A model generated the notes under the pieces. It did not search any database. It saw only the letters and a list, made by a program, of their open reading frames with translations, and had not been told where the DNA came from. Position numbers and translations under genes: made by a program. Below, piece by piece: positions 7,947-17,381 of a stretch of 64,000 nucleotides of DNA (the stretch's first letter is position 1; every line of letters starts with the position of its first letter). This DNA is from Salarchaeum japonicum (lineage in GTDB: Archaea; Halobacteriota; Halobacteria; Halobacteriales; Halobacteriaceae): contig NZ_CP085324.1 in NCBI RefSeq assembly GCF_020614395.1, forward strand, positions 1,121,564 to 1,185,563, given 5' to 3'.

Positions 7947-7997
7947 TTTAGGTAGGCCTAAAATCCGTAGCGCTTATACTCTCTTAGGTTCGCCTAA
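7947..7997 (+). promoter_or_regulatory. Permease operon promoter with two iron-type operators
   Basis: Two palindromes, TTTAGGTAGGCCTAAA (7947-7962) and TTAGGTTCGCCTAA (7984-7997), flank the TATA-like CGCTTATAC (7971-7979). The second sits between the TATA box and the GTG at 8003, the classic position for repression. Half-sites TTAGG/CCTAA match the core of the bacterial DtxR consensus, and the same half-sites recur at 10337, 12511 and 15033. Confidence 0.75.
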
Positions 7998-8002
7998 AAC
8001 TC

Positions 8003-8146
8003 GTGATTCGGAACGACCACGCGGCCCGACCGCTCCCCCGCCGGAACGCGCCGGCGAGCGCGCCCGCTCCTGCGCGCCGGGTAGCGTCGGCCGAGACGAC
8101 GGACGAACCGACCAGCCCCGACGACCCGGAGGTGACGCCGACGTGA
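8003..8146 (+). CDS. Possible 47-aa leader ORF coupled to the permease
   Basis: A GTG at 8003 lies about 24-32 bp after the TATA-like element at 7971-7979, so a leaderless transcript would begin at or near it. The frame runs 47 codons, rich in Ala, Pro and Arg, then ends with a Ser/Thr/Asp-rich tail, and its TGA (8144-8146) overlaps the permease GTG (8143). The composition is not clearly protein-like, so this may be a coupling/leader peptide, not a functional product, or the permease may start inside a leadered transcript. Confidence 0.4.
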   Translation: MIRNDHAARPLPRRNAPASAPAPARRVASAETTDEPTSPDDPEVTPT

Positions 8147-9321
8147 GTTCGCGCGTCTCCGACCGGAACAGACAGCGTTCCCGGCGCGCCGAAGAGGGAC
8201 GCTTCGCCTGGATACACGACCGGAAACTCATCGGCCTCTGCGCCGCGAGCGCCGCGCTCGTCGTCGCGTTCGGCCTCATCCAGGTGACGTTCGGCTCCTA
8301 CTCCATGACGGTTCCCGCCGCCTGGGGAGCCGTCTTCGACCCTGCCGTCCTGCTCGACGAACGCTACCTCCTCGACTACTTCCTCGGCGAAGGCCTGATG
8401 CGCACCATCACGGGCTTCCAGGGCGAAGAACTCCCGCAACTCGCCACCGAGACGCTCATCGTCTGGAACATCCGGCTCCCCCGCGTGTTCGTCGCGGCGT
8501 TCGTCGGCATGAACCTCGCCGTCTCCGGCGCTATCTTCCAGGCCGTCACGCGGAACGAACTCGCCAGCCCGTTCATCCTCGGCGTCTCCTCCGGCGCGGG
8601 CCTGATGATTCTGCTCTCGCTCGTCGTGTTCAGCAGTCTCACCGCCTTCCTCCCCATCGTCGCCGCGCTCGGCGGTTCCATCGCCTTCCTCATCGTGTAC
8701 GCCATCGCGTGGAAAAACGGCACCAGCCCCGTCCGCCTCGTCCTCGCGGGCGTCATCGTCGGCACCGTCTTCAGCTCCCTCCAGACGGCGATGTTCTTCT
8801 TCGCGGACGACATCGGCGTCGTCCAGACCGCCATCTCGTGGACGACCGGCTCCCTCACGGGCGTCGGCTGGGAGCAGGTGCGAATCATCCTCCCCTGGAC
8901 GATTCTCTCGATGCTCCTCGCCGTCCTGAGCGCCCGCCAACTCAACGTCCTCCTGCTCGGCGAGCAGACCGCGCGCGCCCTCGGCGTCTCCGTGGAGAAG
9001 GTCCGGTTCGCGCTCTCCGGCGTCGCCGTCCTCGCCGCCGCCGCGAGCATCGCCGTCGCCGGCATCGTGAGCTTCGTCGGCCTCATCGTCCCCCACCTCG
9101 TGCGCACCGTCGTCGGAAGCGACTACAAGAAACTCGTCATCGGCTGCCTGTTCGCCGGCCCCGCGCTCATGGTCGCCGCCGACGTCGGCGCGCGCCTCGG
9201 CATGATGGTCGTCACGGGCGCGACCAGCGGCCAACTCCCCGTCGGCATCGTCACCGGCCTCATCGGCGGCCCGTACTTCCTCTACCTCATGCGGCGCAAA
9301 CAGAACCTCGGTGAAATCTGA
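8143..9321 (+). CDS. FecCD-family ABC transporter permease (iron-siderophore/cobalamin type)
   Basis: 392 residues starting at GTG 8143. After a basic ~40-residue N-terminus there are about ten hydrophobic helices. Family signatures are clear: IRLPRVFVAAFVGMNLAVSG, the NELASPFILGVSSGAG segment, and near the C-terminus GIVSFVGLIVPHLVR, which contacts the ATPase. It would form the membrane channel that moves an iron-chelate (or cobamide) into the cytoplasm. The stop overlaps the ATPase ATG (TGATG), and the ligand proteins follow immediately. Iron-type operators at its promoter favour a ferric-siderophore or heme-like substrate over B12, but specificity is not visible in sequence. Confidence 0.93.
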   Translation: MSSRVSDRNRQRSRRAEEGRFAWIHDRKLIGLCAASAALVVAFGLIQVTFGSYSMTVPAAWGAVFDPAVLLDERYLLDYFLGEGLMRTITGFQGEELPQLATETLIVWNIRLPRVFVAAFVGMNLAVSGAIFQAVTRNELASPFILGVSSGAGLMILLSLVVFSSLTAFLPIVAALGGSIAFLIVYAIAWKNGTSPVRLVLAGVIVGTVFSSLQTAMFFFADDIGVVQTAISWTTGSLTGVGWEQVRIILPWTILSMLLAVLSARQLNVLLLGEQTARALGVSVEKVRFALSGVAVLAAAASIAVAGIVSFVGLIVPHLVRTVVGSDYKKLVIGCLFAGPALMVAADVGARLGMMVVTGATSGQLPVGIVTGLIGGPYFLYLMRRKQNLGEI

Positions 9322-10327: not shown

Positions 10328-10354
10328 CCTATATACTTTTAGGCTAGCCTAAAA
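10328..10354 (+). promoter_or_regulatory. TATA box and perfect 18-bp operator before solute-binding protein 1
   Basis: The TATA-like CCTATATAC (10328-10336) is followed directly by the perfect palindrome TTTTAGGCTAGCCTAAAA (10337-10354), two bases before the ATG at 10357. A repressor bound here would cover the transcription start of a leaderless mRNA. Confidence 0.8.
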
Positions 10355-12501: not shown

Positions 12502-12528
12502 CCTATAGTGTTTTAGGCTAGCCTAAAA
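12502..12528 (+). promoter_or_regulatory. TATA box and perfect 18-bp operator before solute-binding proteins 2 and 3
   Basis: The element CCTATAGTG (12502-12510) followed by the same perfect palindrome TTTTAGGCTAGCCTAAAA (12511-12528) ends two bases before the ATG at 12531. Spacing and sequence copy the promoter at 10328 nearly base for base. Confidence 0.8.
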
Positions 12529-15024: not shown

Positions 15025-15048
15025 CTTTTTGCTTTAGGGTTGCCTAAA
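15025..15048 (+). promoter_or_regulatory. T-rich promoter and iron-type operator before the 63-aa gene
   Basis: TTTTTTGC (15026-15032) followed by TTTAGGGTTGCCTAAA (15033-15048), nine bases before the ATG at 15057. The half-sites match the other operators of the island; only the four central bases differ. Confidence 0.7.
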
Positions 15049-15256: not shown

Positions 15257-15814
15257 TTACGGCTGGCGGACGAGCGTGTCGTCCGCGAGGAACTTCTCGA
15301 TGTCGTGCGCGTCCGCCTCGATAGTCTCGATGTGGTCGCGCAACACGTCCGACGTCGCTTCGTCACCCAGGTCGTCCGCGAGCGTGATGTGGTCGCGGAA
15401 CTGCACCGCGAGCGTCGCGTACCCGTCGAGGTCGTTCGAGAGCGACGACCGGAGGTCGTACACGTCGCCCGCCTCGATGCGGAGCGGCGCGTGCTCCCGG
15501 ATACCCTTCGGGCCGTTCACGGGCACGCCGCCGAGCGCGACGACGCGGATGGCGAGTTCGTCCGTCAGTTCCGCGAGCCGGTCGGCCGCGTCTTCGAGGA
15601 ACTCCACGACCTGGCCGACATCCCGGCCGCGGAGCGTCCAGTACTGCTTGCGGAGTTGGTTGAACAGGATGTACAGCCCGGAGAGGTCGTCGTTCAGGGC
15701 GTCCACCAGCCGCTCGGTCGCGGCGGTGTCGAGGCGGAGCGCGTTCTCCCCGACCGTCCCCCACTCCTGGCGGAGCGCGTCCTCGCCGGGGTGCCGGAGG
15801 TGGGGCGCGCTCAT
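15257..15814 (-). CDS. Dps-like ferritin-fold protein, ferroxidase residues lost (copy A)
   Basis: 185 residues, collinear with archaeal DpsA (four-helix Dps fold). Compared with copy C and canonical Dps, the site is badly eroded: the KHHWNVEG histidine is Tyr (KQYWTLRG), the LHEFL histidine is Val (VVEFL), and the Glu of DELAER is Ile (DELAIR). It is therefore unlikely to oxidise iron by itself. It may co-assemble with an active subunit or bind DNA or another ligand. The ATG overlaps the stop of copy B (ATGA). Confidence 0.85.
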   Translation of the reverse strand: MSAPHLRHPGEDALRQEWGTVGENALRLDTAATERLVDALNDDLSGLYILFNQLRKQYWTLRGRDVGQVVEFLEDAADRLAELTDELAIRVVALGGVPVNGPKGIREHAPLRIEAGDVYDLRSSLSNDLDGYATLAVQFRDHITLADDLGDEATSDVLRDHIETIEADAHDIEKFLADDTLVRQP

Positions 15815-16383
15815 CGCGACACCTCCACGAGCGTGTCGTCCGCGAGCAGTTCCTCGACCTCGTGCGCCTCCGCTTCGAGGGCTTCCAGTTCGTCCTGCAG
15901 GAGTTCGACGGTCGCCTCGTCGCCCACGTCCTTCGCGAGCGTCACGTGGTCGCGCATGCTCGCGGCGAGCGTCGCGTACGCCTCCAGGTCGCCGTCGAGG
16001 GACGCGCGGAGGTCGAAGCGGTGTTCGGCCTCCAGGTGCACGGGCGAGCACTCCTGAATCTGGGGCGGTGTGCTCGCCGGGACGCCGCCGAGTTCGGTGA
16101 TGCGTTCCGCGAGGGCGTCGTTCAGGTCGCGCGCCCGCTCGTAGCCGTCTTCGAGCACGTCCGCGACCTGTTCGTGTTCCGCGCCGGCGGCCATCCAGTA
16201 GTGCTTGCGCAGGAGGTAGAAGAGGTTGAACGCGCCGGCGTGGTCGGCGTTCAACGCTTCCACGACGTGCGCCGCGTCGTCGCGGTCGAGGCGGAGCGGG
16301 TTCTCCTCGACCGTCCCCCACTCCTGCTGGACGGTCGCGCCGTCGAGCGGCTGGACGAGACGACCCGTTTGCGGGTTCGACAT
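15811..16383 (-). CDS. Dps-like ferritin-fold protein, ferroxidase histidines lost (copy B)
   Basis: 190 residues, same fold and length class as copies A and C. The two ferroxidase histidines are replaced (KHYWMAAG with Tyr before Trp; QVADVL with Ala for His), while the DALAER Asp and Glu remain. Its N-terminus is longer by about 12 residues and reads TVQQEWGTVEENPLRL, echoing copy A (RQEWGTVGENALRL), so A and B are sister duplicates. Coupled to copy A by ATGA and two bases downstream of copy C, it must be co-expressed with both. Confidence 0.85.
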   Translation of the reverse strand: MSNPQTGRLVQPLDGATVQQEWGTVEENPLRLDRDDAAHVVEALNADHAGAFNLFYLLRKHYWMAAGAEHEQVADVLEDGYERARDLNDALAERITELGGVPASTPPQIQECSPVHLEAEHRFDLRASLDGDLEAYATLAASMRDHVTLAKDVGDEATVELLQDELEALEAEAHEVEELLADDTLVEVSR

Positions 16384-16385
16384 CG

Positions 16386-16922
16386 TTAGTTCGTGCGGAC
16401 GAGCGTGTCGTCTTCGAGGTAGTGGTCGACCTCGTGCGCGGCGTCTTCGAGGTCTTCGAGGATGCCACGGAGGAGTTCGCTGGTCGCGTAGTCCTCCAGG
16501 TCTTCCGCGAGGCCGACGTGTTCGCGCACGGTCTCGATGATGTCGCCGTACATCTCGCGGTCGTGTTCGAGCGAGGTGCGGATGTCGTAGACGTCCTCGC
16601 CCTCGAACTCGACGGGCGCGTGGGCTTCGAGGTTCGCGGGGCCGCTGACGGGGACGCCGCCGAGCGCCTGCGCGCGTTCGGCGAGTTCGTCCGCGGCGTC
16701 CTCCGCTTCCTCCGCGCGCTCGCCGAGGAACTCGTGGAGGTCGTTGAACTCCGCGCCCTCGACGTTCCAGTGGTGCTTGCGGAGCTGGTGGTAGAGGACG
16801 TACGTCGCGGCGAGGTCGACGTTCAGCGCTTCGATTATCTGCTCGGCCTTCGCGGTCTCGATGCGGACGGCGTTCTCCTCGACGGTTCCGGCTGCTCGAC
16901 GAACGGTTTCCTGAGTGCTCAT
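16386..16922 (-). CDS. dpsA: DNA-protecting ferritin DpsA (copy C, intact ferroxidase site)
   Basis: 178 residues from the ATG at 16922, the usual haloarchaeal DpsA start. Ferroxidase ligands of the intersubunit site are all visible: KHHWNVEG, LHEFL, and D/E in AADELAER. DpsA forms a dodecameric shell that oxidises Fe(II), stores iron and shields DNA from hydroxyl radicals. It is first in the three-gene operon. A TATA-like GTTAAG (minus strand, around 16949-16955) sits about 27-32 bp before the ATG, and two palindromes lie further upstream. Confidence 0.93.
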   Translation of the reverse strand: MSTQETVRRAAGTVEENAVRIETAKAEQIIEALNVDLAATYVLYHQLRKHHWNVEGAEFNDLHEFLGERAEEAEDAADELAERAQALGGVPVSGPANLEAHAPVEFEGEDVYDIRTSLEHDREMYGDIIETVREHVGLAEDLEDYATSELLRGILEDLEDAAHEVDHYLEDDTLVRTN

Positions 16923-16947: not shown

Positions 16948-17010
16948 GACTTAACTGTTTTCCCCAAGAAGAACTATTTTTTCGGCACACCGAATTTAGG
17001 TTTCCCGAAA
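16948..17010 (-). promoter_or_regulatory. Dps operon promoter with two adjacent palindromes
   Basis: Upstream of the TATA-like CAGTTAAGTC (minus strand, 16948-16957) are TTCGGCACACCGAA (16981-16994, perfect) and, directly abutting, TTTAGGTTTCCCGAAA (16995-17010). The second combines one TTAGG half-site of the uptake operators with one CCGAA half-site of its neighbour, so both could be variants of one TTMGG-N4-CCKAA operator. They lie upstream of the TATA box, not over the start as in the uptake genes. Confidence 0.6.
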
Positions 17011-17093: not shown

Positions 17094-17381
17094 CTACCGC
17101 TGGATGCAGTAGTGGCAGGCGGCCGGCGTGGTGAGACAGATCTTGTACTCGGTCTCGACCGGACCGGAGCCGTCGTCGCTCTCGACGATGGAGTCCCACT
17201 TCGGAAAGAGGAGGTCGGCGGGTTCGTCGCACGCGAAACAGGTCGCCATCGACGTGACCGTCTCCGGGGTCAGCCACTCGTCCTCGCAGTCGAGGCAGAG
17301 ACTCCCCGCCACCGTCCCGGATCGCCGCCCCACGGCGATCCGGTCGTAGTCGGCTGCGCGTCCGCAGCGATAACACTCCAT
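17094..17381 (-). CDS. Small cysteine-rich (zinc-ribbon-like) protein
   Basis: 95 residues with four paired-cysteine motifs: C-x2-C at the N-terminus (CYRCG), C-x2-C (CLDCE), C-x2-C (CFACD) and, near the C-terminus, C-x8-C-x2-C (CLTTPAACHYC). This is enough for two or more zinc sites. No enzyme motif is seen. Similar small multi-CxxC proteins are frequent in haloarchaea and mostly uncharacterised. It is isolated between the Dps promoter and the methyltransferase, same strand as both. Confidence 0.75.
   Translation of the reverse strand: MECYRCGRAADYDRIAVGRRSGTVAGSLCLDCEDEWLTPETVTSMATCFACDEPADLLFPKWDSIVESDDGSGPVETEYKICLTTPAACHYCIQR

Follow-up and report, generated by a model that had tools for sequence, protein, structure and literature searches.

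The 64,000-nucleotide stretch of the Salarchaeum japonicum genome analysed here (the window) contains an operon of three Dps genes, the first of which (C) encodes a canonical haloarchaeal DpsA, while the two that follow (B and A) encode paralogues without the canonical ferroxidase centre. B and A form a pair found side by side, without exception, in 37 haloarchaeal genomes. Tentatively, and with somewhat less than even confidence, we propose that the genes constitute a hetero-Dps system, an iron-controlled three-gene operon whose shell would combine an active subunit with two others devoted to non-catalytic roles.

Organisation of the Dps operon

The features of the operon and its surroundings are listed in Table 1. 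The initial annotation gave the right coordinates and reading frames for the three genes, which lie on the minus strand, and had described B and A as translated in a row behind the active-type copy; the 2-nt gap after C and the ATGA overlap bear this out. A, B and C all match Pfam Ferritin (PF00210), and the nearest solved structure for each is DpsA of Halobacterium salinarum (1moj). Pairwise identity is 51% between A and B and 45% for both A-C and B-C. All three also score above the cut-off (170 bits) of the NCBIfam DpsA equivalog NF041388 (C 286, A 199 and B 181 bits), and the 2.34-Mb genome holds no further Dps of this kind. Database naming misleads in this case, since all three score as equivalog DpsA, yet two have no catalytic centre. 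On their sequences A and B are Dps-family proteins that should not be named 'ferroxidase DpsA', as both fall short of the full ligand set.

Table 1. Dps operon, putative control elements and adjoining gene, in positions of the window
Feature	Position	Strand	Remarks
Copy C, canonical haloarchaeal DpsA, 178 aa	16386..16922	-	H51, H63, D78 and E82 present
Copy B, Dps paralogue, 190 aa	15811..16383	-	Y51 and A63 instead of both His; D78 and E82 retained
Copy A, Dps paralogue, 185 aa	15257..15814	-	Y51, V63 and I82 instead of three ligands; D78 alone retained
ATGA stop/start overlap of B and A	15811..15814	-	Translational coupling
2-nt gap, C stop to B ATG	16384..16385	-	Read from sequence
DtxR-type box TTTCGGGAAACCTAAA	16995..17010	-	-88 to -73 from C ATG
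Second DtxR-type box, overlapping, one mismatch	16980..16995	-	-73 to -58 from C ATG
TATA-like TTAAGT	16949..16954	-	-32 to -27 from C ATG; similar place in relatives
Perfect DtxR-type box of DUF7331-like gene	15033..15048	+	24 nt upstream of gene
Small DUF7331-like gene, 63 aa	15057..15248	+	Below Pfam cut-off; convergent with A

Ferroxidase ligands and fold

The ferroxidase site of Dps proteins lies between subunits, two His being supplied by one subunit and Asp and Glu by the other. Judged by these inter-subunit ligands, C is a DpsA with the complete set, and A and B both fall short of it. The C motifs HHW, LHEF and DELAER provide H51, H63, D78 and E82, and the four positions (51, 63, 78 and 82 in C numbering) were followed through alignments of C (80 sequences), B (35) and A (36). 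Each ligand is retained in 80/80 C. Among the B proteins H51 is kept in 2, H63 in 0, D78 in 34 and E82 in 9, with the window's B one of the E82 keepers; the corresponding counts for A are 2, 0, 36 and 0. The space of the former centre is taken up mostly by Tyr, a small residue and Ile/Val, and at position 45, where His is invariant in C, the B proteins always carry Tyr and the A proteins Asn. The first reading of these ligands, with a full set in C, Tyr, Val and Ile in A and Tyr and Ala in B, was exact, and the occurrence of two copies without a canonical centre recurs across the relatives beyond chance. From this residue pattern A and B would have no ferroxidase activity, and a conserved replacement diiron site in them is unlikely.

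A and B are nevertheless predicted to keep the four-helix Dps fold. Their AlphaFold models (mean pLDDT 79 for A and 84 for B) find Dps proteins as best structure matches, with Z scores to 1moj of 20.7 (A) and 23.3 (B), and both have 40-43% identity to H. salinarum DpsA in the structural alignment. Conservation in A and B peaks in the segment joining helix B to helix C, which has a mean entropy of 0.62 in A and 0.55 in B against 0.98 in C and contains fixed A-versus-B differences. This segment, which in Dps proteins lies near the two-fold interface, is compatible with specific pairing, of which it is no proof. A and B also have N-terminal extensions specific to them; these are not Lys-rich, and DNA binding through basic tails finds no support. 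Altered DNA binding had been among the initial suggestions.

Distribution of the B-A pair

Of 392 genomes sampled from the order, 37, counting that of the window, have an A-type protein matched at a threshold of at least 58% identity, and these genomes span 18 genera and five families. B directly precedes A in every one of the 37 loci inspected (the window and 36 in relatives), in 35 of which the spacing lies between -4 and +2 nt, and neither B nor A was found singly among the matches listed. C lies directly upstream of B in 24 loci. The remaining 13 have B-A with no adjacent C and an active-type C elsewhere in the genome, so that an active-type C is present in every B-A genome. This co-occurrence is weakly informative because nearly all haloarchaea carry DpsA, which was matched in 369 of the 392 genomes.

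A search with a single B sequence against genome contigs returned no match, and one with the alignment of B proteins returned 28 loci. That scan, made with B patterns over one genome per species (84,980 species), found haloarchaeal loci exclusively, among them those of Halarchaeum, Halolamina, Haloarcula, Natronococcus and Halogranum. The distribution is patchy: another Salarchaeum species yielded nothing. One Halarchaeum replicon filed as a plasmid bears an A-type gene, and its record has Dps matches at two other places.

Evolution of the pair and of the C slot

A and B are under purifying selection. The median dN/dS comes to about 0.35 in each of A, B and C, a rough figure as synonymous sites are partly saturated; pairs including the A protein of locus L092, in which a misplaced start produced artefacts, were left out. 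In the loci with C the pairwise distances of A and B are correlated at r 0.97, and those of A and B with C at only 0.77 and 0.78. In the tree A and B each form one clade, and a branch at 99.8 SH-aLRT separates the two together from all else. The description of A and B as sister duplicates is plausible on this branch, although trees that place A or B alone beside C are not rejected (AU p ~0.6), the outgroup being very distant.

The tree of 80 C proteins distinguishes two kinds of operon C, and a single clade for all of them is rejected (p 0.0235). Fifteen operon C, from four families, may form one clade (AU p 0.79). The other nine all belong to family f8 and join its solitary DpsA in the tree (98). 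They lie 12-13 nt from B, as does the C of the first kind in another f8 operon (L083), and because of this equal distance the C of the nine operons has likely been replaced in place, perhaps by gene conversion. The slot before B-A is therefore likely to have been re-filled by the native DpsA lineage in one family. That an active C was kept or restored ahead of B-A suggests a functional link between them, although gene conversion could also account for the exchange.

Probable iron control and gene neighbourhood

The window contains 7 copies, at no more than one mismatch, of the palindrome TTTNGG-N4-CCNAAA (expected number 0.34), each of them located at 7.9 to 17.0 kb; we take this TTTAGG-N4-CCTAAA-like sequence to be a DtxR-type site. 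Genome-wide there are 22 exact boxes, 0 for the reversed control pattern, and three genes for DtxR-type regulators over the cut-off. A box precedes 25/37 Dps operons, compared with 0.6% of random windows, and is divided between 21/24 trios and 4/13 B-A loci. A related palindrome is also frequent near -70 in the promoters of solitary dpsA genes, and the box is thus no exclusive mark of the trio.

Boxes at 7947-7998, 10338-10353, 12512-12527 and 15033-15048 show the palindrome to be common to iron-uptake genes and the Dps operon. By Pfam the uptake genes include a FecCD permease, an ABC ATPase and two solute-binding proteins; a third similar lipoprotein among them has no Pfam match. At the two solute-binding-protein genes (10357 and 12531) 3 nt separate the box from the ATG, and in the trio the boxes (-58 to -88) lie upstream of the TATA-like element. 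Such positions would suit a regulator that represses uptake and activates storage: sitting ahead of the TATA box, a DtxR-family protein could activate the trio, and at the same type of box over the start of the uptake genes it would repress. We infer the sign of both effects from box position. Expression of the trio is probably iron-dependent through a DtxR-family regulator, and uptake genes and Dps operon together are predicted to form one compact iron regulon. For H. salinarum, a decrease of DpsA under iron deficiency is reported (review PMC3600143).

The location of a Dps cluster beside an iron-uptake island, which had been called unusual, holds for this genome only; the uptake neighbours are not conserved in relatives, although the DtxR-type box is. 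No functional neighbour is common to most of the 37 loci. The DUF7331-like gene adjoins A in 7 loci from two families, and each of its seven relatives has a perfect box, 6 of them at -24, making its product a candidate small iron-regulated protein. Upstream of the Dps operon, 17094-17381 (-) encodes a Cys-rich protein of 95 aa with the look of a zinc ribbon and no Pfam match. A CopA-like copper-type P-ATPase with CxxC repeats is encoded within ~8 kb of the Dps genes in 7/37 loci (L059, L061, L070, L071, L081, L085 and L089).

Possible roles of A and B

We put at an even chance the proposal that A and B are Dps subunits dedicated to a non-catalytic role, which assemble together and, where C shares the operon, also with C. 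Mixed shells were one of several options in the initial annotation and are now the best reading, preferred because, throughout 18 genera, the dead pair is kept and never split; co-assembly and stoichiometry are what we infer from the sequences. In such a system C would be an ordinary DpsA, oxidising iron at its intact ferroxidase centre, and A and B an old inseparable pair that retained the Dps fold and lost the catalytic centre. Coupled translation would ensure that A and B are produced together, and the two would most likely assemble mutually, and probably with C, into mixed shells of 12 subunits. Full catalytic half-sites in a mixed shell would come from C only, so that A and B could set the number of active sites per shell and tune its inner or outer surface for iron nucleation, storage or release. 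In this genome pairing C with B could leave one hybrid site intact, His coming from C and Asp and Glu from B, and pairing C with A could leave none. Co-occurrence and coupling fit any joint function and do not specifically require one shell. Since 18 genera conserve this dead pair and co-translate it, the question lends itself to direct tests in genetically tractable haloarchaea.

It is unlikely, though a serious proposition, that A and B build a shell of their own, as an A-B hetero-oligomer or two homo-oligomers, without C and without ferroxidase activity. Such a shell might serve for passive storage of iron or iron chelates, for mineral binding at its surface, or for protection of nucleoid or proteins. 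In 13/37 loci no C is adjacent, so the shell may be able to do without it; the distances of A and B agree better with one another than with those of C, and the N-terminal extensions are peculiar to A and B. Against this, C is directly upstream in 24/37 loci, its slot was apparently re-filled by native DpsA in one family, and a Dps shell without oxidase has no known route for iron loading.

It seems improbable that A and B replaced the diiron centre by a different metal or cofactor, such as copper or haem. In most relatives Cys, Met and His are well conserved in the loop that follows helix B of A (GVPVCGPMGIRQHAP), and the copper-type P-ATPase is close by in some loci; but the Cys and Met are gone from the window's own A (VPVNGPKGIREHAP), and no neighbour is common to most loci. 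The suggestion of another cofactor, made at the outset, also fares poorly at the old centre itself, where Tyr, Ile/Val and small residues fill the space, position 63 of A is among the most variable of that protein, and no substitute ligand set is conserved.

Continued ferroxidase activity of A and B, through other residues or hybrid sites, is very improbable. D78 persists in 34/35 B and 36/36 A, and E82 in 9/35 B including the window's, whose D78 and E82 could complete the one hybrid site of a C-B dimer; but neither His position holds a conserved His in A or B, and E82 is absent from most B, so this cannot be a function of the whole family.

Finally, that A and B are decaying duplicates is scarcely credible, for despite a frameshifted B in one locus (L059) and a disrupted A in another (L092) the dN/dS is ~0.35, the genes are intact in 35/37 genomes of five families, and each subfamily has its own fixed motifs; local decay is likewise ruled out by dN/dS and distribution. 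The frameshift is in B of L059 (7453-8011 +). In L092 (genome G281, 8099-8672 +) 355 nt separate B from A, and a TGA interrupts the N-terminal part of A. Of the in-frame stops in the A of some relatives, those in genomes of the Halolamina type mark the regular end of a shorter A, and the TGA of L092 is a genuine interruption.

Comparison with known systems

C is the same protein as haloarchaeal DpsA (H. salinarum, PDB 1moj/1tjo). A and B share its fold and differ from it in lacking the His ligands (A also the Glu) and in forming separate, always paired groups. They resemble DpsA and DpsB of Lactococcus lactis in being Dps proteins without the canonical centre, as those proteins were reportedly described by Stillman in 2005. 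We know of no case, in L. lactis or among other atypical Dps proteins, of an obligate pair within the operon of an active DpsA. PMC9103930 cites Stillman 2005 solely for the N-terminal tail/helix. Heteromeric or heterododecameric Dps proteins were not reported in the literature searched, most subscription papers being outside its scope.

The H/L ferritins of animals are 24-mers, and involve no operon of Dps-type subunits. Their L chain has no catalytic site and co-assembles with H (PMC7762939). Closer in gene arrangement are the hetero-bacterioferritins, with tandem genes in one operon as here: Magnetospirillum Bfr1/Bfr2 is bicistronic, with one subunit mutated in its ferroxidase centre and the pair required for full function (PMC6529640), and SoBfr12 of Shewanella is a hetero-bacterioferritin (PMC12120770). 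These are haem-bearing 24-mers of the Bfr branch, whereas the trio is of the Dps type, an expected 12-mer with two dead subunits and one active. The trio shares with hetero-ferritin systems the co-encoding of paralogous subunits of which at least one is catalytically dead by ligand loss; the assembly of these subunits in one shell, the other mark of such systems, is predicted. Hetero-oligomers with dead subunits are already known in ferritin and bacterioferritin, and a Dps case would be new if true. In the proposed reading the trio would be the Dps counterpart of H/L ferritin and hetero-bacterioferritin.
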